Virus record (IMG/VR): IMGVR_UViG_3300034018_000248
Coordinates: 1-50,764 of that record
Origin: a virus
DNA: 50,764 nt
Strand: one strand, 5' to 3'
Part shown: in pieces, positions 14,454 to 44,490 of the stretch
How the letters are laid out: the number at the start of each line of letters is the position of its first letter
Position numbering within the stretch: position 1 is the first letter of the stretch
Translations under genes and position numbers: made by a program
The notes under the pieces: generated by a model
Database searches by the model: none
Told to the model about the DNA's origin: nothing
Seen by the model: only the letters and a program-made list of their open reading frames with translations

Positions 14454-14490
14454 GTCTGAGTATTAATTAGTTAAATAACAATTTCAACAA

Positions 14491-14530
14491 GAGAATGTCC
14501 AGTTTTTTGCACAATTAACTGGACATTCTT
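14491..14530 (+). promoter_or_regulatory. 13-bp hairpin between rIIA-like and rIIB-like genes
   Basis: A perfect 13-bp inverted repeat (14492-14504 with 14517-14529) around a 12-base loop. No proper T run follows, so it is more likely an RNA-processing, stability or attenuation element than a full terminator. It ends 16 bases before the next start codon. Confidence 0.6.
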
Positions 14531-14545
14531 ACAAAAATCACAAAA

Positions 14546-28660: not shown

Positions 28661-29073
28661 TAAGACAAGGTTAATAGGTATTTAGTTTTGGCTGCCTCAC
28701 CAGATAATGCATCAGCTAAGTTACATACATCATGATAAGCATTCTTTTCACCATACATCTTTAATGATGATGCGAATGACATTATATCTGATACACATTG
28801 TTCAGCTGTACAGTCTGTAAGAGGTTCTATTTTATAAGCTCCAGGTCTCTTACCTGTATAGCCCATAAGCTTCTCAATCAATCCATCTTTGAAATCATGT
28901 ACGTAATCATACAATGCTCCTGTGGCTTGATGTTCTGCATAGCTTTTTGTTTGCCAGTGAGTCAAGTGTAATTGCTCATGAAAGTAAGTAAGCTTAGCAG
29001 CGATGCTCTCTAATGAGAGCTCGCTACCAGTTGCTTTACTTAACATTTCTTGTGGGAATAATGATTTAGCCAT
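28660..29073 (-). CDS. DUF5856-like ferritin-fold protein
   Basis: A 137-residue helical protein with LHLTHWQTKSYAEHQATGAL, matching the DUF5856 pattern of phage proteins distantly like Dps/ferritin (HWQT...AEH...Y). Helices follow with DFKDGLIEKLMGYTG. It might bind metal through the His/Glu set or simply use the four-helix fold as a structural unit. Phage members are of unknown role. One-base overlaps with neighbours. Confidence 0.72.
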   Translation of the reverse strand: MAKSLFPQEMLSKATGSELSLESIAAKLTYFHEQLHLTHWQTKSYAEHQATGALYDYVHDFKDGLIEKLMGYTGKRPGAYKIEPLTDCTAEQCVSDIMSFASSLKMYGEKNAYHDVCNLADALSGEAAKTKYLLTLS

Positions 29074-29342
29074 TATGGTGCTGCTGTTGTAGTAGTTGTA
29101 GTGGTACTAGTAGATGTTGACGTTGTAGTACTTGTTGACGTTGACGTAGATGTAGTAGTACTTGTAGAACTACTAGTAGTTGTAGTAGTAGGAGGAATAT
29201 AGTTGCAACATTCTTTTGCATCTATTTCTTGCCAATTACCATCTTTAGGCTTAAATCTTTGTAAGATTAAGCTGCTAGGTACAATACGTCCTGTTCCATC
29301 GAAACGAACGTATGCTTTCAATTGATTATTGCTATTTGCCAT
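29073..29342 (-). CDS. Small domain with long Thr/Ser-rich C-terminal tail (copy 1)
   Basis: An 89-residue protein. Residues 1-49 form a small domain (KAYVRFDGTGRIVPSSLILQ ... ECCNYIP), then about 36 residues of nearly pure Thr/Ser, ending TTTTTTTAAP. It is a paralogue of the next gene, with the same domain and tail, and a third gene at 30638 shares the tail. Such tails are classical acceptors for O-linked sugars and a glycosyltransferase is encoded between the copies. Codons in the tail are mixed, so the protein, not the DNA, seems selected. Function unknown. Confidence 0.8.
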   Translation of the reverse strand: MANSNNQLKAYVRFDGTGRIVPSSLILQRFKPKDGNWQEIDAKECCNYIPPTTTTTSSSTSTTTSTSTSTSTTTSTSTSTTTTTTTAAP

Positions 29343-29344
29343 GA

Positions 29345-29590
29345 TTAAGGAGCTGCTGTGGTTGTAGTAGTGGTTGTAGATGTAGACGTACTAGTACTAG
29401 TGGTAGTAGTCGTAGAAGTACTAGACGTTGTAGTCGTAGTTGTAGGAACATAATTACAGCACTCGTATGCTGGAATCTCTTGCCATCTTCCCACTTTTGG
29501 CTTGTTCTTTCTCAGAATAAGGCTGCCTGCAACAACCCTTCCACTACCATCGTAGCGAACAAATGCTTTTAAATCTCTCTGAATTGCCAT
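29345..29590 (-). CDS. Small domain with Thr/Ser-rich tail (copy 2)
   Basis: An 81-residue paralogue of the gene before it: KAFVRYDGSGRVVAGSLILR ... WQEIPAYECCNYVP, then a Thr/Ser tract ending TTTTTTTAAP. The CCNY motif just before the tail is shared. Gene duplication followed by divergence is evident. It lies directly downstream of the glycosyltransferase gene, 5 bases apart, so both are made together. Confidence 0.8.
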   Translation of the reverse strand: MAIQRDLKAFVRYDGSGRVVAGSLILRKNKPKVGRWQEIPAYECCNYVPTTTTTTSSTSTTTTTSTSTSTSTTTTTTTAAP

Positions 29591-29595
29591 TTTTA

Positions 29596-30612
29596 TTAAT
29601 AGTTTAATTTATACTTAAATTTAAGTTTCATCATTTGCTCAACATAGTAGTGTGTACCTTTCTCTTGTGCTCTTGCATCGTTGAATACATATTCTAAATG
29701 AGGATCAGTAAATGGATCGTTACCAGTTATATACTCACCCTTATAAAATGCTGGGTAGTCACCCATGTTTTTGTTTACTATTCCTGCATTGTGCAGGATG
29801 CCAAGCCTGTGGACTTTGTCAATAGGATCTGACGACCAAGAGAATTCCATTTCAGGTAAATTCTTAGTGACCCCACCTCTAAACCAAAGAGCCCAGAGGA
29901 CAGCCCACATGTCAGCACACCAACTTTGAAAGCCTGCAGATTCATCCTTGAAGTATAGTTTGTTTATGTTTAATAAATAACTACGTATTGTAATGCAATC
30001 TCTTAGTACCTTCTCCCAGAACATAGCATCAATATTCTTCAATAGATATTGTGCACCTCCTGAGTGGTCGTTGTTAGCTTCTGCTATTGTTCTTGATATA
30101 CCACACTGAGTGGCAATGTCTTCAAGAACATCTAGTTCTTTATATGCTTCCAATCTTTCTGGAAGCACTTGATGTATCTTACTGTCAAAATATGAAGCGT
30201 TGATGTAGCTATTGGTATCTGATAAATAGTTTATATCGTCATTAATATAGGCGTCAACATTAAACTTATCTGTAAACAATACGTCTGAGTCACAATACAA
30301 TACAGCATGATTCTTCATGTCTGGATGATCTTGCCAATAACGCATTAGAACATATGGACGTAGAACAGGAATATAGATTCCTAGTTTCTGACTTACACCA
30401 TCCTGATCTTTATAGAATTCGAACTTTGCTTCTGGGTAGAGATCTACGATCTGTTGCCACTTCTGGTTCTTTTCTCTGAATGATGGGATAAAGATAAGTA
30501 CAATAGCCTTATCTGAATGTCCAATGTTTCTTAAGCTTTCTAACCATAGATGTACCTGCCAAGTGTAGTAGGTATCATCTGGTTGAGCACAGATAAACTT
30601 TAATTCCTTCAT
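29596..30612 (-). CDS. GT-A fold glycosyltransferase
   Basis: A 338-residue protein with a nucleotide-sugar-binding DxD motif in AVLYCDSDVLF (about 103-113) preceded by a Rossmann-like N-terminal half and followed by ANNDHSGGAQYLLK and a late RLGILHNAG (His metal ligand). It is similar in layout to GT8-type enzymes. It is flanked on both sides by genes for Thr/Ser-rich tails, which makes O-glycosylation of those tails a sensible hypothesis. Confidence is high for a glycosyltransferase fold, low for the substrate. Confidence 0.75.
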   Translation of the reverse strand: MKELKFICAQPDDTYYTWQVHLWLESLRNIGHSDKAIVLIFIPSFREKNQKWQQIVDLYPEAKFEFYKDQDGVSQKLGIYIPVLRPYVLMRYWQDHPDMKNHAVLYCDSDVLFTDKFNVDAYINDDINYLSDTNSYINASYFDSKIHQVLPERLEAYKELDVLEDIATQCGISRTIAEANNDHSGGAQYLLKNIDAMFWEKVLRDCITIRSYLLNINKLYFKDESAGFQSWCADMWAVLWALWFRGGVTKNLPEMEFSWSSDPIDKVHRLGILHNAGIVNKNMGDYPAFYKGEYITGNDPFTDPHLEYVFNDARAQEKGTHYYVEQMMKLKFKYKLNY

Positions 30613-30637: not shown

Positions 30638-30850
30638 TTAAGGAGCTGCAGTTGTTGTTGTAGTCGTAGTAGATGTACTTGTAGACGTAGTAGTAGATGT
30701 AGTGCTACTTGTTGTAGTACTAGTAGTTAATCCTGCAGTGTTTCTAACTACAGCTCCCACTTGTCCAATCAATTGCTCCATTTGCTTAGAAATGTTCCAC
30801 AATTGTTGTGAGACTGGATCTTGCCCTGTAGGTCTAGATGATATAGCCAT
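30638..30850 (-). CDS. Protein with Thr/Ser-rich tail (copy 3, different head)
   Basis: A 70-residue protein. The head (SRPTGQDPVSQQLWNISKQM, then EQLIGQVGAVVRNTAG) is a single helix unrelated to copies 1 and 2, but the C-terminal half is the same Thr/Ser tract ending TTTTTTTAAP. So the tail is a module attached to different heads. Its head resembles short phage virion-associated helices. First gene of the minus-strand block; a promoter-like element is upstream. Confidence 0.75.
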   Translation of the reverse strand: MAISSRPTGQDPVSQQLWNISKQMEQLIGQVGAVVRNTAGLTTSTTTSSTTSTTTSTSTSTTTTTTTAAP

Positions 30851-30943: not shown

Positions 30944-30964
30944 CTCTAATCAAATTGATTAGAG
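30944..30964 (-). terminator. Hairpin at the end of the putative outer-membrane protein gene
   Basis: CTCTAATC (30944-30951) pairs with GATTAGAG (30957-30964) and can extend to 10 bp with a one-base centre. It overlaps the stop codon of the gene at 30959. No T run follows on the minus strand, so termination may be partial. The remaining bases up to 30871 hold nothing else that I can recognise. Confidence 0.4.
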
Positions 30965-32128
30965 ATTGATCTTGGTACCTATCATACCCATGTATGTTAT
31001 AGGTACAGCAGGATTTGTATTCAAGCTAACCTTTAGTCCACAGTTAAATCTAAACCTTTTACTAAGTGATACATCAAATCCAGAGCCTGTTAGTATACCA
31101 AAATCTTTTGTCAAAGAGTTGGAAACATAGATGTCTGGGGACATCGATAAGTACTTATTTACTCTAAATGGTCTAGTGTAGAAGCCCATCAATCCATGGC
31201 CCCACTCACCTGTATATGTAAGAGCGTAGTTGAAACCTGTAACTCCTTTACCTATTGGTTTGATAGCAGCAGCTGTAGCAAACGCTATTGTATTACCTTG
31301 TAGATATACTCCTGTCAAACCAAAGTTCTTTATCACCTTACCCATCCTTGTGTATCTACTTGATAGAGCAAACTGATTAAAGGAACTCCATATCATAGAG
31401 GTAAGTCCATAAGACACGTTCCCAAGGAGTGAGGATTGTGACGCACCCAATGATATAATAGCACTGAGAGGAACATCAGGTCCACTGAGAACAGTAAGAT
31501 CAGAACTATACACAATAGGATTAACTTTAGCAGCAGCCTTGCTGGAAGATTTAGAAGACTTTTTATCATCACTCTTTTTCTCTTTAGATTCACTTTTGCT
31601 TTCTGACTTCTCTTCTGATTTACTTTCTGTTTTACTCTCTGAACTACTCTCACTCTTAGTCTCACTACTAGTAGAAGAACTACTGCTAGATGATGGGCTC
31701 GCTGCAGGAGCAGGTGTTGGTGTTGAAGCAACTGCTGATGAGGTAGCTGCACTTGTAGCACTACTAGTAGCACTACTAGTTGCAGCAGCTGTAGCAGCTT
31801 GTGTTGCCTGAGCTGTAGCCTGTTGAGTTGCTTGCTGTGTAGCTTGAGCAACTGCCTGTGTTACAACAAGGGTTGTAGCTGTAGTTGTTTGTGGACAAGG
31901 TGTAGAGTTGATCATATTGATCCACGCTGTTAAAGCTCCTGACGTTATGTCATTTGCTGTAACTACCTTAGCCTTACCTCTATAAACAATTGTAACTGTC
32001 CCATTACTAATAGGAACAACTACAGTGAGTACTTGACCATTACATGGATCTACATAAATCTGTGTAAGAACCTGTGCATCGCACAAGTTCCACATCAGTA
32101 GTAATGTAACAGTCAATAACCATTTCAC
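30959..32128 (-). CDS. Putative exported outer-membrane protein with low-complexity linker
   Basis: A 389-residue protein with a signal peptide (MKWLLTVTLLLMWNLCDAQ). Residues about 20-85 look like a small beta domain. Then comes a long low-complexity linker: Gln/Ala/Thr repeats (90-135), a Ser-rich tract and a Ser/Glu/Lys tract (to about 205). The C-terminal 180 residues alternate polar and hydrophobic strands (YALTYTGEWGHGLMGFYTRP; FDVSLSKRFRFNCGLKVSLN), like an outer-membrane beta-barrel. So the phage seems to make a cell-envelope protein, with a linker rich in possible O-glycan sites. Fold call is moderate. Confidence 0.6.
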   Translation of the reverse strand: MKWLLTVTLLLMWNLCDAQVLTQIYVDPCNGQVLTVVVPISNGTVTIVYRGKAKVVTANDITSGALTAWINMINSTPCPQTTTATTLVVTQAVAQATQQATQQATAQATQAATAAATSSATSSATSAATSSAVASTPTPAPAASPSSSSSSSTSSETKSESSSESKTESKSEEKSESKSESKEKKSDDKKSSKSSSKAAAKVNPIVYSSDLTVLSGPDVPLSAIISLGASQSSLLGNVSYGLTSMIWSSFNQFALSSRYTRMGKVIKNFGLTGVYLQGNTIAFATAAAIKPIGKGVTGFNYALTYTGEWGHGLMGFYTRPFRVNKYLSMSPDIYVSNSLTKDFGILTGSGFDVSLSKRFRFNCGLKVSLNTNPAVPITYMGMIGTKINL

Positions 32129-32466
32129 TACTTAGGTTCAAGCTTAAGAGTAGAGTCAATAGAAACTTGTGAACGCTTCAACTTTAACATCTCATCTTGA
32201 TAATCCCATTTAGCTTCCATAGCTTTAATCTTCTGACGCTCTTTGATCTTGCCACGTAGTTTGAAGATCTTACCTTCAACCTTAGAAATCTTTACGTAAC
32301 GTGCTGCAGGATCGCTTTCTGTTACTTTAATAACTTCTAGTTTGTGTTCTAGATTAGAGATACGAGTTTGATACATAGGTATCTTGGCTCCCTGATATAT
32401 CTTAATAGCAGGGTAGATCGATGCAACTAATGCAATCGAACCAGCAATGATTAGTTTTTCTAACAT
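32128..32466 (-). CDS. Membrane-anchored coiled-coil protein
   Basis: A 112-residue protein with one N-terminal hydrophobic segment (LIIAGSIALVASIYPAI, 5-21) and a long charged helix with heptad-like pattern (KISKVEGKIFKLRGKIKERQ, 55-100). An inner-membrane spanin would look like this, but it sits with the exported-protein genes, so it could be an anchor or scaffold for the CsgG-like secretion proteins. One-base overlap with the next gene. Confidence 0.65.
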   Translation of the reverse strand: MLEKLIIAGSIALVASIYPAIKIYQGAKIPMYQTRISNLEHKLEVIKVTESDPAARYVKISKVEGKIFKLRGKIKERQKIKAMEAKWDYQDEMLKLKRSQVSIDSTLKLEPK

Positions 32467-32475
32467 TGGTTTTAT

Positions 32476-33201
32476 TTATTTAGTGAATATTTTCTTTTTT
32501 ATCATCCTTACCACAATCTTGCTAGCAGCATCTTCAAGTGCCTTCTTAGTCGTTGTGCCAATGGTGGATTGATTAAACTTAACATCAGTAAAGTTAGCAT
32601 CGTTCATCAATGTTGCTTCTCTAGTAGTTTGAGCTGTGCCCAAACCTGAACCAGTGAAGTACGCTCCAGTCTCAGCGTCTACAAATTTGACCTGTAGACC
32701 TAGTCGTGTTACCACAGTTTGCTTTACATTACCTTTCAAAGATAATGATTCGTCTTCAGAAACAGAAAAGTCATACACCTCAATGTATACAAAATATTTA
32801 GCTAGGCGTATCTTACCACGTCCATCTAATTTATCTTGAGTTATCCCAGACTGTGATGCCTGGAATTGTTTGACCATTCTATTCTTGATCTCAGCTTTGT
32901 CTTCAGTGAATATGAACCTATTAGTTTCCTCTAGGTACTCTACAACTATATTAGTAACACCAAGACCCACTCGTTTGTCCTTGAGTTCTGGATAAGAAGT
33001 ATAGACGTCTTCATTGATACCAAGAGATAAGAGTTGAATAGGAATGGTTGGGCCATCATAATCCATCAATGAGTCTATGTTAATCTTCTTTTCAAATGAA
33101 GCTGTGTAAGATTCTGTCTTAGTTGTAGCAATCTGACCACTAACGCTGTACGTTAGTAATACACTCAATAATAAACTGAATAAAAAGCTTAATTTCTTCA
33201 T
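32476..33201 (-). CDS. CsgG-like secretion-channel protein
   Basis: A 241-residue exported protein. Signal peptide about 1-22 (KKLSFLFSLLLSVLLTYSVSG). Mature sequence shows the CsgG/curli-transporter pattern: VGLGVTNIVVEYLEET ... RFIFTEDKAEI, RLGLQVKFVDAETGAYFTGS, and a C-terminal helix (KKALEDAASKIVVRMI). E. coli CsgG is a lipoprotein that forms a nonamer pore; no lipobox Cys is present here. CsgG homologues have been reported in marine phages. Its C-terminal pattern FNQS...KKALEDAASKIV recurs in the gene at 35630. Confidence 0.6.
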   Translation of the reverse strand: MKKLSFLFSLLLSVLLTYSVSGQIATTKTESYTASFEKKINIDSLMDYDGPTIPIQLLSLGINEDVYTSYPELKDKRVGLGVTNIVVEYLEETNRFIFTEDKAEIKNRMVKQFQASQSGITQDKLDGRGKIRLAKYFVYIEVYDFSVSEDESLSLKGNVKQTVVTRLGLQVKFVDAETGAYFTGSGLGTAQTTREATLMNDANFTDVKFNQSTIGTTTKKALEDAASKIVVRMIKKKIFTK

Positions 33202-33229
33202 ATAGTTTTCTCATTAAGAGGGGGTTTCG

Positions 33230-33541
33230 TTACCACTTAGGCTCTTCTTGCAAAGCCTCCTTTTCTGTCTTAGCCTTAGGCTTAGCAGGTTTTTCTACCA
33301 CACGCTCAATAACTTTTGTGCCTCCAGCAGATGCTGCTTGTTGTTGAGAGTTATTAGTAGTGATATTGATTACAGGTGCAGGAGTTGTGGTAGCAGCAGG
33401 AGCAGCTTCAGCTTTCTCTTCTCCACCACCAAACATCTGTGAGCCTATGTAAGCACCACCAGCTGTTACAATTGTTCCTACAGTTCCTACTATAGTCTTG
33501 ACCAACCCTGACCAAGTACCATCATTTTGTTCTTCTGACAT
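33230..33541 (-). CDS. Single-pass membrane protein with disordered tail
   Basis: A 103-residue protein. An N-terminal acidic start is followed by a hydrophobic Gly/Thr-rich helix (VKTIVGTVGTIVTAGGAYIG), then an Ala/Thr/Pro-rich disordered region, an Asn/Gln-rich strand (INITTNNSQQQ) and a charged tail (RVVEKPAKPKAKTEKEALQE). It is probably membrane-inserted with a flexible tail. Role unknown; one-base overlap with the lipoprotein gene suggests joint work. Confidence 0.6.
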   Translation of the reverse strand: MSEEQNDGTWSGLVKTIVGTVGTIVTAGGAYIGSQMFGGGEEKAEAAPAATTTPAPVINITTNNSQQQAASAGGTKVIERVVEKPAKPKAKTEKEALQEEPKW

Positions 33542-33903
33542 TATCGTTTAATGATTAAAGGTTTTTTAATAGATACACCAGCTACATCAGTAAGTGTAAG
33601 ATCATAGATACCATCTTGTAGGTCTTTGAAGTCATACACTTTAGTTACAATCTCTTCCTCAGCTGTTAAAGGAAGAGTCTTGGTTGGTTCTGTCTTACCA
33701 AACTCGTACACTTGTACAGAATACTTAGCTCCCACTGTTAAGTTGTATGTAATAGTAGCCTTAACACCTTGAGACACAACGCTCAAAATTTGTGTGTTAG
33801 ATGCTTTTGCACCTAGATTTATTGGAGTGCTCTCAAATTGTTCTAAATCAGAACATGCAAGTGTTAGAAAAATGAACAATATAAATACTAATGCTTGTCT
33901 CAT
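33541..33903 (-). CDS. Predicted lipoprotein with beta-sandwich domain
   Basis: A 120-residue protein with a lipoprotein signal (MRQALVFILFIFLTLACSDL; Cys17). The mature part contains alternating strands (ATITYNLTVGAKYSVQVYEF; GIYDLTLTDVAGVSIKKPLI), as in Ig-like/FN3 folds of Bacteroidota surface lipoproteins. It is part of the exported-protein block together with the CsgG-like and cohesin-like genes. Confidence 0.7.
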   Translation of the reverse strand: MRQALVFILFIFLTLACSDLEQFESTPINLGAKASNTQILSVVSQGVKATITYNLTVGAKYSVQVYEFGKTEPTKTLPLTAEEEIVTKVYDFKDLQDGIYDLTLTDVAGVSIKKPLIIKR

Positions 33904-33908
33904 AGTGG

Positions 33909-35633
33909 TTAGAAGTTATTGTATCCTGTAAGTTTAATTTTATCTGTATTCATGTTAATAGGTAGTTGTGATCCTTTAGCGTCAGCAGCATCCATGATAG
34001 GACTAACCCTAATAAATGTATTGATGTCTAGTCCATTCTGTAATGCTGTGAAGCGTAACTTGAATGGAGTGAACTCACCTTCTACAGGAGTCTTAAGGTT
34101 CTGATCTAATGCACCAAACTTAATATATCCTTCACCTTTGTTAGCAAACACATGCCAGTTGTTAGGCATCTCGTTCTTCAACTCTTCAAACTTCAACTTA
34201 CTTGTGTCATAAGAGAATTGGAATTGTAAAGCTTCTACTTTGTTTCCATTTGTGGAAACTTTTACAGGGATCTCAATTGAATTAGATGTAACTACAGCGT
34301 TTGTTAAGCTTACACTAATAGGATTAACTGCAAGTCTTCTGTTCAATACTAAAGATCCATTTTGTGTAACTGTAGATGAACTAGATTTATTTATGTCACC
34401 AAATAATAAGTAGCTAATGTTAATCGTTTCTGGTGTACCACGTTGAGCAGGAGTAGTATATACATACTGTGTAGGTCCTACAGGGAATCGAGTAAGCCAA
34501 TCAGCAGGTGTAGCAGCGTTATAATCAGATGATTTAAATGTCATGAAGCTCATGTATCCATTAGATCCAGCTGTATATCCAGCAGGAAGTACAACTAATT
34601 GATCTACACTTACTACTTGTGCAAATAATCTAGTTAAGTCACCACCATCAAGCTTACCACTTCTATTAACATCTGCAGCTTTATATCCAGCACCACTAGT
34701 GATAACTGTGTTCTTAAATGTACCATCTAAGTTCTGTGATATAAACTCAGACTGTGCAGCTGTGTAATCAGATGTTGTAATACCAGCGTTGTATAATGCT
34801 TGGATATGATCCATGTTATACATTACCATGATCTTATACTGAGTATTAGGTGCAAGTGATGAGTCAACAATGCTAACAGTACCATTAGATGTTACATCAA
34901 ATAAAGGTCCTTGGTTAGTAGTTGCATTAACAAACGCCACCTTAGTGTAAGCAGGATTCAACGCACTACTTAATGCTACTGTAGCATTAACAAGTTTAGT
35001 AGCGTTAGGATTCTGTGTAATGATTGTAGTTAGAGGAACCTCCATTAACGTAGCACCAGTAGAACCATCTTGATTAAACGCAGCACCAAAGTTCATCTTT
35101 ATAGGATCCCAGGAGTTACCAACAGCTGTAGTCTTTAATCTAAAACGAAGCTTAAGTAATGGACTATATGCAGCAAATGGTAAAGCATTAGGAGATGCCC
35201 AGTTCAAATACACACGCATGATAGTCTTAGGACCACCAGATGTGAAAGCATAAGCAGCATTCTGATAGTTAGCATTACCATTGGTTGTATTGTTATTAGC
35301 GTTAGCCACCCAAGTATAACCAGGATATAAATAGTTTGTAAGATCTATACTAGATCCTGCAGGAAGAACACCACCATTACCACCAGTACCAGTGTGTGCA
35401 ACAGAAACAAATTCAAACGCAGCGTTGTTGAATTCAAAATCAAAGTAGAGTGAGCGAGCAGTAGTGTTACCATTACCATTCAGGTCTACGTTAACAATGA
35501 ACTCATCACCTTTGTCAATAACGCCACCAGCGATATCAACTTTAGTAGAGTCAGAGCCAAGTTTTAATTTAACGTTTTGACCAAGAGTATTAAATGTTAC
35601 TAAGGTTAGAACTAGGAATAAGAGTTTTTTCAT
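33909..35633 (-). CDS. Secreted protein with cohesin-like and dockerin-like domains
   Basis: A 574-residue exported protein. Signal peptide 1-18 (KKLLFLVLTLVTFNTLG). Residues about 22-200 resemble a cohesin/CBM-like beta-sandwich (GDEFIVNVDLNGNG ... SLYFDFEFNNAAFEFVSV). A dockerin-type calcium motif ADVNRSGKLDGGDLTRLF follows at about 317-335, with a half-site FGDINKSSS near 411. A second cohesin-like domain ends the chain (IEIPVKVSTNGNKVEALQFQ, FSYDTSKLKFEEL). Such domains bind each other in cell-surface assemblies. Export may use the CsgG-like neighbours or a host system. Confidence 0.6.
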   Translation of the reverse strand: MKKLLFLVLTLVTFNTLGQNVKLKLGSDSTKVDIAGGVIDKGDEFIVNVDLNGNGNTTARSLYFDFEFNNAAFEFVSVAHTGTGGNGGVLPAGSSIDLTNYLYPGYTWVANANNNTTNGNANYQNAAYAFTSGGPKTIMRVYLNWASPNALPFAAYSPLLKLRFRLKTTAVGNSWDPIKMNFGAAFNQDGSTGATLMEVPLTTIITQNPNATKLVNATVALSSALNPAYTKVAFVNATTNQGPLFDVTSNGTVSIVDSSLAPNTQYKIMVMYNMDHIQALYNAGITTSDYTAAQSEFISQNLDGTFKNTVITSGAGYKAADVNRSGKLDGGDLTRLFAQVVSVDQLVVLPAGYTAGSNGYMSFMTFKSSDYNAATPADWLTRFPVGPTQYVYTTPAQRGTPETINISYLLFGDINKSSSSTVTQNGSLVLNRRLAVNPISVSLTNAVVTSNSIEIPVKVSTNGNKVEALQFQFSYDTSKLKFEELKNEMPNNWHVFANKGEGYIKFGALDQNLKTPVEGEFTPFKLRFTALQNGLDINTFIRVSPIMDAADAKGSQLPINMNTDKIKLTGYNNF

Positions 35634-36151
35634 TTGAGAAGTTTATTAACTAATGTATTACAGGACTTTTTAAGTGCACTTGATAAATTGGTTTGATTAA
35701 ACTTTCCACCTTCGTCTATAACCAATGCAGCCATTGATACTTCCTCAGCAGATTCTTCTACTATTACTGTCTTCTTTACTTTACCATCTTCAACCAACTG
35801 TCCTCTCATACGTATGACAACAGCATCAGAGTTACGATGAAAGACTGATAAATTAGTTTGCGTTTTGAGAACATCTAGATATAACAATTCTATCTTGATC
35901 TCCTTAGTTGCTTCATCACTAACATCATAGCCATCTTCTTGTAAGAATTCTTCCATGATACCTTTAACTCCAAATGCCAGGTTTCTACTACCTGCTAATT
36001 GTCCCATGACAATTCTGTTGTTAACAGGTGCCACCTTGATAGGATTGTCTGGAGTTGTAAAGTGTCTATAGATGTATACAGACTGAATCATTAATGCTGA
36101 TCCCACCACTGTGGATGTGAACCAGAAAGTAATAGCGAAAAGTAGTTTCAT
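35630..36151 (-). CDS. Second CsgG/YajG-like exported protein
   Basis: A 173-residue protein with an N-terminal hydrophobic segment (LLFAITFWFTSTVVGSALMI), either a signal peptide or an anchor. The mature part has beta strands (IKIELLYLDVL; AVVIRMRGQLVEDGKVKKTV) and ends KFNQTNLSSALKKSCNTLVNKLL. That ending closely resembles the C-terminus of the CsgG-like protein at 32476 (KFNQSTIGTTTKKALEDAAS), so the two may be related and act together. It overlaps the next gene by four bases. Confidence 0.5.
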   Translation of the reverse strand: MKLLFAITFWFTSTVVGSALMIQSVYIYRHFTTPDNPIKVAPVNNRIVMGQLAGSRNLAFGVKGIMEEFLQEDGYDVSDEATKEIKIELLYLDVLKTQTNLSVFHRNSDAVVIRMRGQLVEDGKVKKTVIVEESAEEVSMAALVIDEGGKFNQTNLSSALKKSCNTLVNKLLK

Positions 36152-36181: not shown

Positions 36182-36313
36182 TTATCTTCCCTGTCCTCTG
36201 TATTTCTTTTTACTTGGTGCAGCCTTAGGGCCAAATGTTTTTTGATGTTTGCCTTTACGTCTCACGCCAAAGACAATCTTTTTAGACTCAGAGGATTTGC
36301 TTGGTTTAGCCAT
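36182..36313 (-). CDS. 43-residue basic protein
   Basis: A small basic protein (MAKPSKSSESKKIVFGVRRK ... PSKKKYRGQGR). KKYRGQGR at the C-terminus is a recurrent ending of small phage basic proteins. The stop is 30 bases before the next gene downstream; the start overlaps the endolysin stop by one base. Perhaps of the same class as the basic proteins at 25496-27660. Confidence 0.65.
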   Translation of the reverse strand: MAKPSKSSESKKIVFGVRRKGKHQKTFGPKAAPSKKKYRGQGR

Positions 36314-37167
36314 TATGATAATAGTTTATAGTACTCGTTAAAATGTTTTTGTCTATCAGCTAAACCAATTGTTCCTCCATTAACACGTTTAGTTACTGCT
36401 GTTACTGTAGCACTGTCAGCTCCTTTATCACAGATAGCCCATAGCTTGTTGCTGTTAAAGAAGAATGCTGCTGATGCTAATGGATATTTAGTTGCTACTA
36501 AATCAGGATTAGCTATAATGTCTTCAGGAACTGTAGAGTTAAATCTTGTATAATTCTCTTTACCTGTCAACTGTATATATCCTCTTCCTCTAAATTTATA
36601 TCCATCTCCAGATCCTTCAGGCCCATTACCCATACGACTAGCATAAACCCTGTTAGCAATTTTCTCAGGCTGTCTTTGATAAGCATTAGCAAGTGATGCA
36701 TTTGGAAAGTATTTTTTAAATATGCCCATCAATCCTTTAGCAGAATAGTTAAGGTTCTCACGAACTGCTTTCCACCCACCTGATTCATGGCCACACTGTG
36801 ATAAAAAATGAGCAAGGCGTAAGTTATTTGTAATACCAAAACGTGCAGCTGTATCAGGAATCTGTGCAATCACAGCGTCTGGGATATGTCCTTTAAGTTT
36901 GTCTAGTTTAAATCCAGAGTTGTTTGGAATAACTACAGGTGCAGCAACTGGTGCTGCTACAGGGGCAGTCTGTGGTAAAGCCTCGATGCCTAACTTAGAC
37001 AATGTGAAAGGACCAGCTATACCATCTGCTGTAAGTCCATTATTAATTTGCCAAGCTATTAAAGCAGCTTCTGTCTTAGGACCAAACTTACCAATAGCGT
37101 CCACGCCAAGCTTCTCTTGAAGCTTAGTTACTAATGGACCTTCATCACCTCTACGTAATACAGACAT
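36313..37167 (-). CDS. Endolysin: peptidoglycan-binding domain plus GH19 muramidase/chitinase-like domain
   Basis: Cell-wall lysis enzyme of 284 residues. Residues about 3-60 are a PG_binding_1 repeat (RRGDEGPLVTKLQEKLGVDA ... GKFGPKTEAALIAWQ), a Pro/Ala linker follows (66-80), and 95-284 is a GH19 domain with FLSQCGHESGGW (catalytic Glu128) and YKFRGRGYIQLTGKENY (190-206). No signal peptide, so it needs a holin. It is encoded next to a holin-like and spanin-like pair, a standard lysis cassette. Confidence 0.92.
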   Translation of the reverse strand: MSVLRRGDEGPLVTKLQEKLGVDAIGKFGPKTEAALIAWQINNGLTADGIAGPFTLSKLGIEALPQTAPVAAPVAAPVVIPNNSGFKLDKLKGHIPDAVIAQIPDTAARFGITNNLRLAHFLSQCGHESGGWKAVRENLNYSAKGLMGIFKKYFPNASLANAYQRQPEKIANRVYASRMGNGPEGSGDGYKFRGRGYIQLTGKENYTRFNSTVPEDIIANPDLVATKYPLASAAFFFNSNKLWAICDKGADSATVTAVTKRVNGGTIGLADRQKHFNEYYKLLS

Positions 37168-37169
37168 TT

Positions 37170-37778
37170 TTATTTTATTTTACGATAGTAACTAAAACCA
37201 AAACCTAAAGATCCTTCTGTATTGACTGTTACCTTACTACCAAAGATGTTATCCTTTTTATCTTTATACAATAGTCCAGCTTCTGCACCATTGATCTTAT
37301 TAACACTGATAGCATTTACGCCTCCACCAATAAAGAAGTTACGTGTAGGAGGAGCATACTTAGTGATGGTCATTGTTTCTTTAACAATAGGGATCTTAAA
37401 GTTGTCCTTAGCTGTACGCTTACCAAGTTTATTCTCAGCCACTGTATCAGTGATCTGAATATATCCATGTGTCCCAACCTTAACTGAATCAACATAGATT
37501 CTGCGAGAAGCATACTTCTTAGCAAGATCATCGTATTGTTTCTTTAAACCAGGATAACTAGTGTCAGCCTGATATTTAGTTACAAGTACTTCGTGTGGTA
37601 CTGGTACTTCTTTAAGAAAAGGTACTTCTTTAACGATGGTCTTTTCATGTATCTGCCAAGTAGTATCGTGTACAACTAGAGTGTCTGGACCTTTAGCACC
37701 TTCGTGCTTTGAATCATTATAGAAATATATAAGTAGTGTACCTATAATGATTATAATTGCTAATGTTAGTTTTTTCAT
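37170..37778 (-). CDS. Membrane-anchored spanin-like protein
   Basis: The best start is the ATG at 37778 (202 residues, KKLTLAIIIIIGTLLIYFYN); an upstream in-frame start at 37826 would overlap the holin-like gene by 41 bases. One N-terminal membrane helix, then a periplasmic part with repeated Val/Pro/Lys/Glu (KTIVKEVPFLKEVPVPHEVL), a helix (YPGLKKQYDDLAKKYASRR), and a C-terminal region that may be beta-rich (FFIGGGVNAISVN; GSLGFGFSYY). Its place between endolysin and holin-like genes suggests disruption of the outer membrane (spanin), but it is larger than most. Confidence 0.6.
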   Translation of the reverse strand: MKKLTLAIIIIIGTLLIYFYNDSKHEGAKGPDTLVVHDTTWQIHEKTIVKEVPFLKEVPVPHEVLVTKYQADTSYPGLKKQYDDLAKKYASRRIYVDSVKVGTHGYIQITDTVAENKLGKRTAKDNFKIPIVKETMTITKYAPPTRNFFIGGGVNAISVNKINGAEAGLLYKDKKDNIFGSKVTVNTEGSLGFGFSYYRKIK

Positions 37779-37785
37779 AAGAGAT

Positions 37786-38091
37786 TTATCCCTCTTCATA
37801 AGGGGCTGGTTGTTCATTCTTATCACCAGCTTCTCCTTTTGTTTTCTTTCCCATAACGTTTTCTACGCCAGAGATACCAAAACAACCAAGAACAATGATG
37901 GTTAAAGAATTAAATACATAATCATTAAGGACTAATTCTTTGCCTACGTATCCTGTAACTAAATCTACAGTAACTACAATAAGCATAAAAAGGAATGCGA
38001 TAGCTCCAATGATGGATTTCTCATTCCAATCGTTATCATCTTTAAAAATACTGAAGAAAGATTCTTTAGGCTCTTCAATTAAATGTTTCAT
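37786..38091 (-). CDS. Holin-like two-helix membrane protein
   Basis: A 101-residue protein with two hydrophobic helices (IIGAIAFLFMLIVVTVDLVT, 27-46; YVFNSLTIIVLGCFGISGV, 58-76), a charged N-terminus and a very charged C-terminal tail (KKTKGEAGDKNEQPAPYEEG). This is the topology of class II holins, which form the lethal membrane lesion that frees the endolysin. It overlaps the gene before it by 17 bases. Confidence 0.75.
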   Translation of the reverse strand: MKHLIEEPKESFFSIFKDDNDWNEKSIIGAIAFLFMLIVVTVDLVTGYVGKELVLNDYVFNSLTIIVLGCFGISGVENVMGKKTKGEAGDKNEQPAPYEEG

Positions 38092-38898: not shown

Positions 38899-38930
38899 AT
38901 TGTATTTTTGTGTAAATATATCTAACTTTG
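38899..38930 (+). promoter_or_regulatory. Bacteroidota-type promoter of the glycosyltransferase operon
   Basis: ATTG (38899-38902), exactly 20 bases, TAACTTTG (38923-38930), a perfect TAnnTTTG -7 element. The ATG at 38948 is 17 bases further on. It lies in the divergent region between DUF6165 and the first glycosyltransferase. Confidence 0.6.
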
Positions 38931-38947
38931 AACAAACCAACAAATAC

Positions 38948-39898
38948 ATGAAGTCAATTTGCTTAAATCTTAGCGAATGTCCTGCTCTTGGTGATCTTAT
39001 ATGTGCTACGCCTACAATAAGAAAACTATCTAGAGCCTATGAACAGAACATTACTGTGGTGAGCCCTATGCCAGAGCTGTTCAAAAATAATCCATACGTA
39101 CAAGCTAGTTACAAATCCACGTCAGTTGATTGGGATTACTTCAATGAACATTTCATTGTGCATAATTCATTCTATTTAGTGGGCAAAAAAGATGAACGTG
39201 GTGTAGAGATGAAGCATAACACTATGGATATACGTCAATATCATGCTGTACGTCTAGGGTTTATGTTAGATAGCACAGAGTTGTATTGTGAATACTCCCC
39301 TACAGAATCAAATAGATTTAGTATATCCCAAAAGTATATACTTATACACCCTGTAACTACATGGGCTAACAGAACATGGGCTGCTGAGAAGTGGATGGAG
39401 CTTGTAAAAAAGCTCAACGATGCAGGAGTGTATGTAGTTAGTATAGGTAAAGATAGTAGTGAGACTGGATTCTTTAATGTAGAGAAGCCTGTGTTCAACT
39501 TTGAGATACCTCATGGATTAAACCTAATGAATAAGACTTCTATATCAGATTGTTATCACCTTATACATAATGCATCATGTTTTATAACTATGGACAGTGG
39601 GTTACTACATCTCGCTGGAACTACAAATACTCCCATTATACACTTGGGTTCGTCACTCAATCCTAACTACAGAGCTCCATACAGAACAGTGCATGGTCAG
39701 TACCATAGATATAAATATGTTGCTGGTACGTGTGCACTTCAATGTTGTTCTGACATGAAGTATGGTGTGAAGGAGTGGGGATCTGTACAAGGCGTACAAC
39801 CTCTAATAGGTTGCCTTGAAAATAAAGATAAGTTTTATTGTCATCCAGAAGTAGATCAAGTTTATGAAGAAGCTATTAATTATATCTCCACACTTTAG
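38948..39898 (+). CDS. Family 9 (heptosyltransferase-type) glycosyltransferase
   Basis: A GT-B fold enzyme of 316 residues of the ADP-heptose:LPS heptosyltransferase family. N-terminal LSECPALGDLICATPTIRKL carries the conserved Gly-Asp; the C-terminal half has YILIHPVTTWANRTWAAEKW and the sugar-nucleotide site FITMDSGLLHLAGTTNTP. A longer upstream TTG start exists, but ATG 38948 follows the promoter well. It overlaps the next gene by 35 bases. In bacteria this family adds heptose to LPS core or to proteins. Confidence 0.85.
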   Translation: MKSICLNLSECPALGDLICATPTIRKLSRAYEQNITVVSPMPELFKNNPYVQASYKSTSVDWDYFNEHFIVHNSFYLVGKKDERGVEMKHNTMDIRQYHAVRLGFMLDSTELYCEYSPTESNRFSISQKYILIHPVTTWANRTWAAEKWMELVKKLNDAGVYVVSIGKDSSETGFFNVEKPVFNFEIPHGLNLMNKTSISDCYHLIHNASCFITMDSGLLHLAGTTNTPIIHLGSSLNPNYRAPYRTVHGQYHRYKYVAGTCALQCCSDMKYGVKEWGSVQGVQPLIGCLENKDKFYCHPEVDQVYEEAINYISTL

Positions 39899-42488
39899 TA
39901 CAGGAGGAGCACCACAGGTAACATTAAATAAGGTAAAATTGTTACGAGACCACTATGAAATCATGGTGGTGGAATATGCATTTCTTGCATGGAACTTTGT
40001 TGTACAGCGTAAGAAGGTAGAAACTTTACTTGGAAACAACTTTGTATCTCTAGGGGAGAATAAGATGGAGCTTCTAGATATTATTGAAAGCTTCAACCCT
40101 GATGTCATCTCTATGGAAGAGTTTCCTGAGATGTTCATGGACAATTCTCTTACTGGTATGATATACAATGATAGAACGTATCGTATTGTAGAGACTACCC
40201 ATGATAGTTCATTTCCTCCTCATGAGAAAAGATGGATGCCTGATAACTTTGTGTTTGTTAGTGCATACAATATATTCAAGTATGCTCACCTAGATATTCC
40301 TATGGAAGTTATTGAATATCCTGTCAATGTAAAGCTTGACAATAGGGAACCAAAAGTAAAGCTACACCTTGACGTTTGTATCGTTGGACTGTGGACACCA
40401 CGTAAGAATCAAGCCTATGCTATAGAGATGGCAAGACATCTTATAGACTACAATGTAAGATTTCACTTCTTAGGTAATCAAGCTGGTAACTTTGAGAGCT
40501 ATTGGAAACCATTAATGGAAGATCTACCAGACAATTGTATAGTGCATGGAGAATCAGATAGGGTTAGTAGTTTTATAAAAGATTGTGACATGTTCTTGTT
40601 CACATCTAAAGGTGATAGAGGTAATAAGGAGCTCAATCCTATTGCTATCAAAGAGGCGTTAGAGTATCCACACATTCCTAAGATGATGTTTAATCTAGAT
40701 GTCTATTGTAATAAATATAATGATCATAAAGATGTACTCTATCTAAGTGGTGATAGCTATCTTGATGCAATGAACATGGCAACAGTATTAAAGTTACAAG
40801 AAAAGAACAATGAGATTATTGTTATAGGTACATATCCTAACACTGAGACTAGAACACAACTAACTTTAGCTTGTATCGAGAGTGCTAAGAAGTTAGGTAG
40901 ACCTATCATGTTAGTTAGTCACTATCCTGTAGAATTACACGTACAAAAAATGGTGGATTACTACGTATACGATGCAAACAATCCTCTAACGCATCACAGC
41001 TATTACAATAGATTCTATCGTGAAGATGCAGAAGCTAAGGTGGAGATGAAGATAACTGGAAACAGTAACCAGTCTCTCACTGTTCTAACTAACTTAATTA
41101 ATGCAAGTAAAGTAGCTAGAGGCTTAGGATATACCAAGATGTTCTATGTAACATTTGATATAGAGCTTGAGGATAGAGACTTTGATGAGATCAATAGTAG
41201 GTTCCATCAACTAGATAATGAATGGCAAGCTGTCTTAGCTACATTGAATACGCCATTTGGTAAAGGTATACAAACCAATGGTATGTTCTTCAAGACAGAC
41301 TTTGTTGGTAAGCTATTGGATGATGTACGTACGCCAGAAGAGTATAACAAGTTATGTGAATCTATAGGAGCTCAAAACTTCTTAGAGGACTACATGATGA
41401 AGAAAGTTCAAAGAACACAAGGTGTGTGGGTAGAGTATCCTGATGTGGAAACTTTTTTAGAGTATAGTGGTCATGGTAAGTCTTCCAATAGTGAGTATTA
41501 TGGTATAGTAAAAGAACAAACTACTGGCCAGAATGTATTCTATTTTCATTCTTATAATACTGACAATAGAATAATAGAGGTGATATTAGATGATGAGCTG
41601 CCAGTTGAATTAAAACTATCAGAGAAACAAACATTAGTATTACCTATTCCTAATCACATTAAACAAGTAGTGATGCTTATAATAGAGGATTGGGAAACCA
41701 TTGCAGAAAAAGTTTATAACTTAGATGGTTATGAGCATGATGGAACCATTGTTCTAAAACAAGTAAAGGATTCAAATAGACCTAACATTAAATTAGTACA
41801 CATTCAAACTACATTAAACGATGATAGAGAAAGATTATCTAGAGCGTCGCTGGAACAAGTTAAAGATTATGGATGGGAGTATATCCTCCACCAGAATATC
41901 CCTTATGCCAGCCTCCCACCCCAGCATAACTGTAACAGACCACAAGCAGTCTCAATGGAGTTATTCGATGAGGCTACAGTCAGAGAAAGAAGCACAGCTC
42001 TTACGCCAGCACACTATGGTTGCTATGAAGCCTTCAAGAATGCCATCCTAAGTGAGATGCATGACTGTGACTATCTTATTGTGTGTGAAGGGGATTGTTT
42101 AATTGAAGGAGATGTTGAAAAATTCATACACAAAGTAGAGAAATGTGCTTTAATGTTGGAAGAAAACAACATAGGCTTTATGTCTTTTGGAGATAAGGAT
42201 ACATTAGAATTTGCGTGGCCACAGAGTCCTGTAGTGAAAGAAGTAGATGAAGATATGTATGTTACAGATCATCTAATAGGATTGCAATGCATCATGTTCC
42301 CTTATTATGTCAGTAACTTTTTAAAGGAAAAACTGCGTTTAAACAACTGGGACGCAGCTGACATGTATTTTAACCAAATATTTTATTCAAGTTCTTATAA
42401 CATGGGTATTGTACATAAACGTTTGACAACCCAAGCAGATGGTTATTCATTGATTGATAAACAATTCAAAGAGTTTATAAAGAAATGA
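39864..42488 (+). CDS. Large multi-domain glycosyltransferase
   Basis: An 874-residue protein with at least three modules. 1-310 is a GT4-type GT-B domain (LLIISPHFSTGGAPQVTLNK; VCIVGLWTPRKNQAYAIEMA; ELNPIAIKEALEY). About 320-560 is a GT-A-like domain (MLVSHYPVELHVQKMVDYYV ... FYVTFDIELEDRDFDEI) related to the next gene. About 560-640 is beta-rich. 640-874 looks like another GT-A domain (LVHIQTTLNDDRERLSRASL; YLIVCEGDCLIEGD; GFMSFGDKD) like GT25/LPS transferases. It could build a multi-sugar chain alone. Confidence 0.8.
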   Translation: MKKLLIISPHFSTGGAPQVTLNKVKLLRDHYEIMVVEYAFLAWNFVVQRKKVETLLGNNFVSLGENKMELLDIIESFNPDVISMEEFPEMFMDNSLTGMIYNDRTYRIVETTHDSSFPPHEKRWMPDNFVFVSAYNIFKYAHLDIPMEVIEYPVNVKLDNREPKVKLHLDVCIVGLWTPRKNQAYAIEMARHLIDYNVRFHFLGNQAGNFESYWKPLMEDLPDNCIVHGESDRVSSFIKDCDMFLFTSKGDRGNKELNPIAIKEALEYPHIPKMMFNLDVYCNKYNDHKDVLYLSGDSYLDAMNMATVLKLQEKNNEIIVIGTYPNTETRTQLTLACIESAKKLGRPIMLVSHYPVELHVQKMVDYYVYDANNPLTHHSYYNRFYREDAEAKVEMKITGNSNQSLTVLTNLINASKVARGLGYTKMFYVTFDIELEDRDFDEINSRFHQLDNEWQAVLATLNTPFGKGIQTNGMFFKTDFVGKLLDDVRTPEEYNKLCESIGAQNFLEDYMMKKVQRTQGVWVEYPDVETFLEYSGHGKSSNSEYYGIVKEQTTGQNVFYFHSYNTDNRIIEVILDDELPVELKLSEKQTLVLPIPNHIKQVVMLIIEDWETIAEKVYNLDGYEHDGTIVLKQVKDSNRPNIKLVHIQTTLNDDRERLSRASLEQVKDYGWEYILHQNIPYASLPPQHNCNRPQAVSMELFDEATVRERSTALTPAHYGCYEAFKNAILSEMHDCDYLIVCEGDCLIEGDVEKFIHKVEKCALMLEENNIGFMSFGDKDTLEFAWPQSPVVKEVDEDMYVTDHLIGLQCIMFPYYVSNFLKEKLRLNNWDAADMYFNQIFYSSSYNMGIVHKRLTTQADGYSLIDKQFKEFIKK

Positions 42489-43480
42489 AACCAGTAGTTA
42501 TCATAGATACATTTCCTGAAAGTAGAAAGGCGTACAGCATTCTCAATACATCTATAGACTCATTCAAGTCTATGGGTTATGATGTCATGCTTGTAAGTCA
42601 CATCTATATAGATGAGTCTACTGCCAAGAAGTGTAAGTATGTGATATACGATCAAGACAATAAGTTCCTACCTAGGAAACATTGTCCAGTGTTCTACAAC
42701 ATCTTTTCAAACATTTACTTTGAGATAGCCTATGGAGGACATGCTCTTCCTATCTGTAGAAGTATAAAAGCATCTGTAGCCCTAGCTAAAGCCTTTGGCT
42801 ATGAGTACTTTATATTCACAGAGTCTGATGTAATAATAAAAGGAAAGGACTGTCAGTTATTTGAATCATACGTTTATCAAATGGTTAACGAGAATAAGTC
42901 TATGATGTTCTTTAAACCAAAAGACTTTAAATCCCCATCAGGAGAAGACGTATATGAATCATTACTGTTTGCAGGTAACATAGATTACTTTAACAAAACG
43001 TTCAAGGTGCCAACTAATGTAGACGAGTGGTTGAAAGTTCCTATGCAGCTAACCTTAGAGCAATCTTTCTTCAGCGTATTCAATCGAGACGAGAAGAAAT
43101 TTCTTATAGTTCCTGATCACAGCTCTAAGATATTTAAGGAGAGTGATGTTAACTTGATGAGAATAGGACTGTTCAATTGTGAAGTGGTTTATAATGAAGT
43201 TACTCCAACTAAACCAGTGTTGGTTATAATGAACTACCTATTAGAAAACAATACAAAGTATGTAGACATATATGTGAATGGTGAGATGTCATCAAACCAA
43301 GTATTAATACGTGGACAGTTTTGGTTCTACGACTTTAACATAGATAACTCTGTAATACATGTAAATGTATATAATGATAGTGAGAAGAAATCTTTATATT
43401 TATCTAAACGATTTGTTATGAATGAAGAACTTGCTAATAAAGTAAATGATGTTGGAACATTTAAATATATAAACGAATGA
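42485..43480 (+). CDS. GT-A-like glycosyltransferase related to the middle of the previous protein
   Basis: A 331-residue protein whose first 230 residues (IIDTFPESRKAYSILNTSID; MLVSHIYIDESTAKKCKYVI; FGYEYFIFTESDVIIKG) match the middle domain of the 874-residue protein in order (MLVSH, K..YY/V.YD, A..A..GY..F...D). The ESD motif stands where DxD is expected. The C-terminal 90 residues are beta-rich. Gene duplication of this domain is likely. Overlaps both neighbours by four bases. Confidence 0.75.
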   Translation: MKPVVIIDTFPESRKAYSILNTSIDSFKSMGYDVMLVSHIYIDESTAKKCKYVIYDQDNKFLPRKHCPVFYNIFSNIYFEIAYGGHALPICRSIKASVALAKAFGYEYFIFTESDVIIKGKDCQLFESYVYQMVNENKSMMFFKPKDFKSPSGEDVYESLLFAGNIDYFNKTFKVPTNVDEWLKVPMQLTLEQSFFSVFNRDEKKFLIVPDHSSKIFKESDVNLMRIGLFNCEVVYNEVTPTKPVLVIMNYLLENNTKYVDIYVNGEMSSNQVLIRGQFWFYDFNIDNSVIHVNVYNDSEKKSLYLSKRFVMNEELANKVNDVGTFKYINE

Positions 43481-44490
43481 AAATAGTTCAAGTAGCAACA
43501 GGACTCATCACCATCCCACCTAATGGTTGGGGTGCTGTAGAACGTATCATCTGGGAGTATGCTAATAACCTTCAGTTGATGGATATAGATGTAGAGATCA
43601 AGAACTGGAATGATGTAGTGTACGAAGAGAACACTATTGTACACTGTCACATGGCTAACACAGCTCTTGATATGCGTGACAAAGGTATTCCATACATCTA
43701 CTCACTACACGATCACCATGCTGAATGGTATGGTAAAGACAGTGGTGTATATCAGAATAACCTAGCAGCTATTAAAGGATCTGTTATATCTATTTGTCAT
43801 AGCAAACACATCATTGATTACTTTGATGGCACAGATAAGTTGTTCTATCTACCACATGGTGTTAACACAGACTTCTTCAGACCTATTCTACCAGATGTAC
43901 GAGAGAAGAAGAAATTATTAATGATCTGTAACAATGGTATTGCTGGAGATATTAGTATAGATCGTAAAGGATTTAGGATAGCTATTGAGGCAGCTAAGAA
44001 GTATAACCTACCTATCACAATTGCTGGTCCAGAGAACAATCAAGGATTCTTTGAGCATCATAAGGATCTATTAGAGTATGAAAAGTTAACTTTAAAGTTA
44101 ACAAATCCTACAGATGATGAAACCTTGAAGTTATATCAAGAGCATAGTATCTTCATGGCCCCATCATTCTTAGAGTATGGACATCCTAATCTATCTATAT
44201 TAGAAGCAATGAGTTGTGGATTACCAATTGTTGGTACATGCAATGCTGAAGTACCTGGCATGTATAGAATGAAAGAGGTGAGTCTTGACGAAGCAGTTAT
44301 GGGATTAGTAATATTAGATACACAGTGGTTTAGATATTATCATGACCAATTAAATCAACGTGAGAATCATAGTTGGTATAAAGTATGTAAACAACTTAAA
44401 AAGTTCTACAATGCTGCTAGTATCGTTACACAGAAGTGGACTGACGATGATACAACCAACGCTTACATAAATGTATACAATGGATTATAG
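43477..44490 (+). CDS. Family 4 glycosyltransferase
   Basis: A 337-residue retaining GT-B enzyme. N-terminus KIVQVATGLITIPPNGWGAVE (Gly-rich acceptor region), middle HCHMANTALDMRDKG and ISICHSKHIIDYFDG, and the donor-binding C-terminal motif EYGHPNLSILEAMSCGLPIV with the ExxxxxxxE pattern. Complete. The adjacent enzymes suggest assembly of one glycan. Confidence 0.9.
   Translation: MKIVQVATGLITIPPNGWGAVERIIWEYANNLQLMDIDVEIKNWNDVVYEENTIVHCHMANTALDMRDKGIPYIYSLHDHHAEWYGKDSGVYQNNLAAIKGSVISICHSKHIIDYFDGTDKLFYLPHGVNTDFFRPILPDVREKKKLLMICNNGIAGDISIDRKGFRIAIEAAKKYNLPITIAGPENNQGFFEHHKDLLEYEKLTLKLTNPTDDETLKLYQEHSIFMAPSFLEYGHPNLSILEAMSCGLPIVGTCNAEVPGMYRMKEVSLDEAVMGLVILDTQWFRYYHDQLNQRENHSWYKVCKQLKKFYNAASIVTQKWTDDDTTNAYINVYNGL

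Follow-up and report, generated by a model that had tools for sequence, protein, structure and literature searches.

A conserved phage module that may anchor a cohesin/dockerin assembly on the outer surface of Bacteroidota

The IMG/VR record IMGVR_UViG_3300034018_000248 is a 50,764-base linear virus record carrying phage replication genes; its whole length, positions 1 to 50,764, is referred to here as the window. Seven minus-strand open reading frames (ORFs), near-contiguous or overlapping by a few bases, occupy positions 30959-36151. In reading order they are named CsgG1, COH, LP120, TM103, CsgG2, TM112 and OMP. With about even confidence, we read this block as a late phage module that would anchor a cohesin/dockerin assembly, formed by COH, on the outer surface of Bacteroidota bearing a type IX secretion system (T9SS). 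At the level of sequence, the elements of this reading are a conserved module, export signals on its products, cohesin and dockerin domains, a T9SS sorting domain in relatives, an equivalence between that domain and LP120, lectin partners and a linkage to lysis genes.

Results

Conservation of the block and export of its products

Relatives were collected by scanning viral contigs with CsgG2, where the best 80 of 326 related stretches were taken, and with COH, which contributed 25 loci, some on the same contigs. Profile searches over 105 viral loci (identified by L numbers) found homologues of CsgG2 and TM103 in 100 loci each, of OMP and COH in 98 each, of CsgG1 in 96, of LP120 in 86 and of TM112 in 16. 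The core order CsgG1-COH-(LP120)-TM103-CsgG2-OMP is usually kept in about 100 loci, even with lysis genes elsewhere, while the other neighbours vary. All block genes are under purifying selection (pairwise dN/dS, the ratio of non-synonymous to synonymous substitution rates, of 0.05-0.43 for the window against L003 and L008), TM103 being the least constrained. The original prediction, made from the sequence of the window alone, had described seven adjacent minus-strand genes and proposed a search for the same block in other phages. All seven ORFs lie where it had placed them and have viral homologues, and the search recovered the core order in these loci and a shorter version of the block in a cultured phage.

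A Bacteroidota-style signal peptide ending before Q was found in 88 of 93 distinct COH homologues, 66 of 73 for CsgG2 and 73 of 77 for OMP. The lipobox is present in 63 of 65 LP120 homologues, and an N-terminal hydrophobic segment in 73 of 74 TM103 and 71 of 73 CsgG1 homologues. With the same crude heuristic, no Q-type signal peptide was detected in the 33 plus-strand ORFs longer than 80 residues in bases 1-25500 of the window. In keeping with the earlier claim that nearly all products carry a signal peptide or a membrane anchor, the export signals recur among distinct homologues.

Among cultured phages, tblastn with CsgG2 and COH matched only four records of Flavobacterium phage immuto. The same search with OMP and CsgG1 gave no match in cultured phages; profiles detect both in immuto. 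By profile, gp014-gp019 of this phage correspond to COH (two genes), TM103, CsgG2, OMP and CsgG1, a shorter version of the block annotated as hypothetical throughout except for one 'cohesin domain-containing protein'. A scan of genome contigs for CsgG2 yielded two metagenome-assembled contigs only, probably binned phage. A bacterial origin of CsgG2 was rejected on this ground, and the family appears confined to phages.

The cohesin/dockerin protein and its sorting domain

COH (33909-35633, minus strand) is a secreted protein of 574 residues in which a dockerin-like segment lies between two cohesin stretches. The cohesin family PF00963 matches in two stretches (E=2.9e-6; 28.0 bits against a cut-off of 24.1) and the dockerin family PF00404 falls just under its cut-off (E=5e-4; 20.7 bits against 22.9). 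The Ca-loop residues D321, N323, D329, D332 and D413 are invariant among homologues. In the homologue alignment, one group has about 85 additional C-terminal residues. These constitute a T9SS type A sorting domain: PF18962 scores over its cut-off in the COH proteins of L049, L057, L059, L067 and L109 and in gp015 of immuto, with a sub-threshold match in L063, and TIGR04183 matches 5 of 19 COH proteins. Such a domain on the COH relatives is, from established knowledge, a label for translocation across the outer membrane. COH or a close relative would therefore be labelled for the outer surface.

LP120 replaces the sorting domain across modules

LP120 (33541-33903, minus strand) is a lipoprotein of 120 residues whose C-terminal part resembles the T9SS sorting domain. 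Profile-profile comparison of the two with hhalign gave a probability of 96.8% (E=2.8e-10), and PF18962 matches 12 of 22 LP120 homologues (best E 5.9e-5). The lipobox Cys is invariant and is followed by acidic residues (33% against a background of 9%), located at +3 in 46 of 63 and at +5 in 45 of 63 sequences. This stretch recalls SDDFE, the surface-lipoprotein signal of Flavobacterium (PMC5080379), but its spacing is D-x-E instead of D-D. The lipoprotein, the cohesin/dockerin protein and the outer-membrane protein named in the original prediction all hold as described there.

Modules whose COH carries a fused sorting domain are devoid of LP120. In 95 of 95 modules the number of unfused terminal cohesins equals the number of LP120 genes: 76 modules have one of each, 6 have two of each, and 13 have a fused domain and zero LP120. 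The modules with two COH and two LP120 genes (L041-L043, L079-L081) are the strongest cases, since they show a match in number. On the CsgG2 tree, 4 switches separate the fused and separate states, at least 3 of them by well-supported branches; the loci are not independent. LP120 was also absent from 29 of 30 modules found with sorting-domain COH queries, a set selected for the sorting domain and partly repeating earlier contigs; the exception is a stray match of 56 residues. This exact replacement across modules suggests that LP120 takes over the role of the sorting domain in trans. The exchange of fused and separate domains would constitute a natural test of a domain acting in trans.

LP120 consists of little beyond a lipid anchor and a sorting-like domain, as would be expected if it and the sorting domain were decoys jamming the host type IX machinery. 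The exact tracking of terminal cohesins by LP120 genes in number is more than a general decoy would call for, and we regard such interference as very improbable.

Dockerin-bearing partners in relatives

About 40 loci encode a secreted C-type lectin (Lectin_C) protein; in two of those scanned Laminin_G_3 interrupts the lectin domain. In L057 a PA14 protein occupies its place. A related dockerin is present on most of these partners. With a dockerin profile derived from COH, the larger group of lectin proteins is matched at E-values of 1e-6 to 1e-12. The lectin counts come from a domain-only profile; an iterated lectin search pulled in all COH proteins, apparently via the common dockerin region. 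These partners raise the possibility, which we put forward tentatively, of a cellulosome-like display machine in large Bacteroidota phages, in which a cohesin scaffold would be anchored on the infected cell via T9SS or via a trans-acting phage lipoprotein domain and phage lectins would be docked by dockerins.

Lectins are common in tail fibres, and the block genes are probably late. Both points would suit fibre or decoration proteins of the virion. Signal peptides, a lipobox and T9SS sorting domains are not in keeping with virion components, and no convincing structural-protein match was found for the seven proteins; we regard this assignment as very improbable.

Envelope components and the curli question

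CsgG2 (32476-33201, minus strand), an exported protein of 241 residues, shows the strongest conservation in the block and has, weakly, a CsgG-type fold. Its AlphaFold2 (AF2) model is of low confidence (predicted local distance difference test, pLDDT, of 65, built on 16 sequences). Foldseek retrieved CsgG (4uv2) with this model at E=1.3e-6 and a probability of 1.00. VIA Z-scores were 12.2 for Cj1090c and 9.8 for CsgG (root mean square deviation, rmsd, of 4.3 over 161 residues), and the model also resembles the wider CsgG/LptE/PelC/FlgT group. In a viral structure library the one clear match is a phage protein annotated CsgG. The model shows a single long hairpin (136-175) with charged residues, again at low confidence. 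No match to the CsgG family PF03783 was obtained in the window up to E=10, nor in any of 16 CsgG2 homologues. The window protein has no lipobox, and with a Q-type signal peptide on most homologues the family is mostly not a lipoprotein.

CsgG1 (35630-36151, minus strand; 173 residues) is exported or membrane-anchored and weakly YajG/Lipoprotein_16-like. Its sole sequence match, PF03923 (YajG/Lipoprotein_16), lies below the gathering cut-off (E=1.8e-4); this family matches 18 of 28 CsgG1 homologues. Searches of PDB sequences with the CsgG1 and CsgG2 profiles gave no match. A common origin of the two proteins was rejected, as they have just a weak C-terminal motif in common. Of the two CsgG-like proteins announced by the original prediction, CsgG2 stands at the fold level only and CsgG1 has the sub-threshold YajG match alone.

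OMP (30959-32128, minus strand; 389 residues) comprises an N-terminal domain with two cysteines invariant among homologues, a helix, a long disordered Ser/Glu/Lys linker and a C-terminal barrel. The barrel, predicted to be a 12-stranded outer-membrane barrel, spans residues 205-388 in the AF2 model at a pLDDT of about 80-88. VIA Z-scores were 24.2 for NalP (rmsd 2.2, 214 residues), 21.3 for KdgM and 19.6 for FapF. No autotransporter Pfam family matched OMP (E up to 10) or its homologues. TM103 (33230-33541, minus strand; 103 residues) has one membrane helix and a Pro/Ala/Lys-rich tail ending in W103, which is invariant in the homologue alignment. TM112 (32128-32466, minus strand; 112 residues) combines a membrane anchor with a charged helix and has a narrow range (the 16 loci mentioned above). 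Structure prediction, the check proposed earlier for CsgG and outer-membrane folds, thus gave a good barrel for OMP and a low-confidence CsgG-type fold for CsgG2.

Kinship with curli, implied by the original prediction, was not supported. CsgE, CsgF and curlin had no Pfam match among the seven block proteins, the relatives being scanned in part only; together with the missing PF03783 match and the missing lipobox on most CsgG2 proteins, this led us to reject curli membership. A related possibility is that rings of CsgG2 and CsgG1 and the OMP barrel form a private secretion pore exporting COH, which would polymerise outside as a curli- or Fap-like fibre holding sibling cells. The CsgG-type fold, the FapF-like barrel and the presence of cohesin and dockerin within one COH chain are consistent with it, and sibling capture has been proposed for pelagiphage curli (PMC7029224). 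However, CsgG2 has no family match and is mostly not a lipoprotein, and the single long hairpin in its model is of low confidence as a pore element. Moreover, CsgG1, CsgG2 and OMP are kept in relatives whose COH has a T9SS sorting domain, where a private pore would be redundant. We consider a pore of this kind improbable.

Linkage to lysis genes

The endolysin gene (36313-37167, minus strand; PHROG 181, E=1.2e-66) is a usually linked neighbour. The same endolysin family is found 2.1-4.5 kb from CsgG2 in 35 of the 41 loci with at least 9 kb of flank on both sides. A putative spanin (37170-37826, minus strand; 64 loci) has an N-terminal membrane helix and a long periplasmic part and gives no Pfam match; its beta-rich C-terminal end could insert in the outer membrane. 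A putative holin with two helices (37786-38091, minus strand; 93 loci) belongs to a family that many relatives have inside the block; in L039, L045, L077 and others it is encoded between TM103 and CsgG2. Both assignments are readings of the sequence. Between the endolysin and CsgG1 there is usually sm43 (36182-36313, minus strand; 59 loci), a basic protein of 43 residues. The lysis neighbourhood noted in the original prediction is real and recurs across loci.

The main rival to surface display is that the block is an accessory of lysis and egress, its proteins weakening or tearing the outer membrane and surface layer beside holin, endolysin and spanin. The endolysin linkage and the holin-like genes inside the block agree with this, as do lipase class 3 genes, found close to CsgG2 or OMP in 10 loci, and exported nucleases encoded within or close to the block in 16. 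Against it, many of these loci already have a spanin-like gene, the endolysin of immuto is about 6 kb away with other genes in between, and the lectin, cohesin, dockerin and T9SS sorting domains do not belong to a lysis apparatus. We consider a lysis function rather unlikely, and surface display and help in lysis could both be true.

Further genes were noted near the block in relatives. Exported non-specific nucleases (PF01223) adjoin it in two lineages (L045:9538-10152 and L107:9935-10513); they might degrade the DNA of incoming phages or make the lysate less viscous. An additional membrane protein with an RRW motif (L006:9438-10004, L059:8579-9112), holin-like by eye and absent in the window, occurs in 59 loci; it is mostly placed between TM103 and CsgG2 and otherwise elsewhere in the block or close to it. 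L081 (12675-16351), L079 and L054 have, near the block, an outer-membrane gene resembling TonB-dependent receptors with a lipoprotein gene behind it (by Pfam in L081, by sequence in the others).

Elsewhere in the window, three small proteins of two N-terminal types (29073-29342, 29345-29590 and 30638-30850) have near-identical Thr/Ser tracts closing TTTTTTTAAP. A glycosyltransferase-like gene (29596-30612) sits among them, so that the tracts could be O-glycosylated. A plus-strand run of genes glycosyltransferase-like by eye (38900-45559) is divergent from the block. The window also encodes a tryptophan halogenase homologue (48199-49752; PHROG 2928, E 6.7e-102), an unusual metabolic gene for a phage, and distant homologues of the lysis inhibitors RIIA and RIIB (12135-16036).

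Discussion

A model for surface anchoring

In the favoured reading, that of an anchored surface assembly, COH would reach the periplasm through Sec. Export by the host T9SS would then be directed, in many relatives, by the C-terminal sorting domain of COH itself, and in the lineage of the window LP120 would supply this role in trans together with a lipid anchor. OMP, CsgG2, CsgG1 and the inner-membrane tether TM103 would make up the envelope part of the assembly or support it. The cohesin would, in many relatives, be a docking site for C-type lectin or PA14 proteins that carry a dockerin. Produced together with the lysis proteins, the whole would cover the cell shortly before lysis and while it proceeds. 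We infer that the proteins form a complex, that cohesin binds dockerin, that the complex sits on the surface, when it is made and how the phage benefits. Blocking of re-adsorption or superinfection, capture of cells and help in egress are candidate benefits. The most likely is shielding from adsorption: by masking or cross-linking surface glycans, the assembly would keep progeny and rival phages from adsorbing to the dying cell and its debris.

Several observations weigh against this model. COH of the window has no sorting domain (PF18962 and TIGR04183 not matched), its LP120 copy gives no PF18962 match, and the lectin link is missing in its lineage. The immuto-type lectin proteins are not listed by the dockerin profile, their dockerin likeness being judged by eye. 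The CsgG2 model is of low confidence, as is that of the N-terminal part of OMP; 12-stranded barrels are common, and KdgM and NanC match OMP as well. The close association with lysis genes would suit a role in lysis equally well. Finally, several DNA-polymerase relatives on contigs of 90-118 kb have no CsgG2, which suggests that the module may be dispensable, although these contigs are fragments. CsgG2 was found in 2 of 22 such relatives, a figure from which prevalence is not readable as the contigs are fragments, and a CsgG1 search in six of them gave no match.

The secretion or surface-assembly system of the original prediction thus survives in outline, through the well-predicted OMP barrel, the weak CsgG2 fold and the T9SS domain of the COH relatives, and without its curli kinship. 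The T9SS link, the equivalence of LP120 and the sorting domain, and the lectin-dockerin partners of relatives had no part in it. The idea is directly testable, as the core module is present in immuto, a phage cultured on Flavobacterium sp. LMO8. If true, it would mean that aquatic Bacteroidota have their outer surface reprogrammed by abundant phages through a conserved multi-protein assembly that uses the type IX pathway.

Comparison with known systems

Phages with a partial type VIII secretion system (CsgG/CsgF, some with CsgA/B) include pelagiphages and methylophage Melnitz; the function of these curli operons is unknown, surface, lysis or aggregation roles having been proposed (PMC7029224, PMC9004378, PMC9599517). 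Like them, the block groups exported envelope proteins in one phage operon and includes a CsgG-type fold. Unlike them, it matches neither the CsgG family nor CsgF or CsgA, and most CsgG2 proteins are devoid of a lipobox. A cohesin/dockerin protein, a barrel for the outer membrane and a T9SS-type domain come in addition, and the hosts are Bacteroidota. Type A sorting domains on phage proteins have been reported for Cryophage, with presumed use of the host T9SS, and were called a unique occurrence (PMC7468147). The block has the same type of domain on phage proteins. However, the Cryophage cargoes are variable single genes, whereas the block is one conserved multi-gene module with the sorting-type domain either fused to COH or on a separate lipoprotein. 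If true, such a split, trans-acting T9SS-type domain would be new.

As in cellulosome scaffolds, the block has cohesins, beside a dockerin-like segment, and relatives add a carbohydrate-binding protein with a related dockerin. It differs in that no cellulase was found among the proteins scanned, that the COH dockerin has a long insert between its two loops, and that binding is predicted only. OMP resembles type V autotransporters and FapF in its predicted 12-stranded barrel, in the helix that the model places in the lumen and in having an N-terminal domain, but it has no Pfam autotransporter match, has a long disordered linker and lies within a multi-gene module. In the open-licence literature we found no description of this module, of a phage module with cohesin and CsgG, or of a separate sorting-type lipoprotein. 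On phage use of the T9SS, the papers cited here are the only ones found. Phage curli pores and phage T9SS cargo are already known separately, and the papers on them do not describe the conserved module. While failing curli membership, the block would work like parts of curli, of T9SS cargo and of cohesin-dockerin systems.

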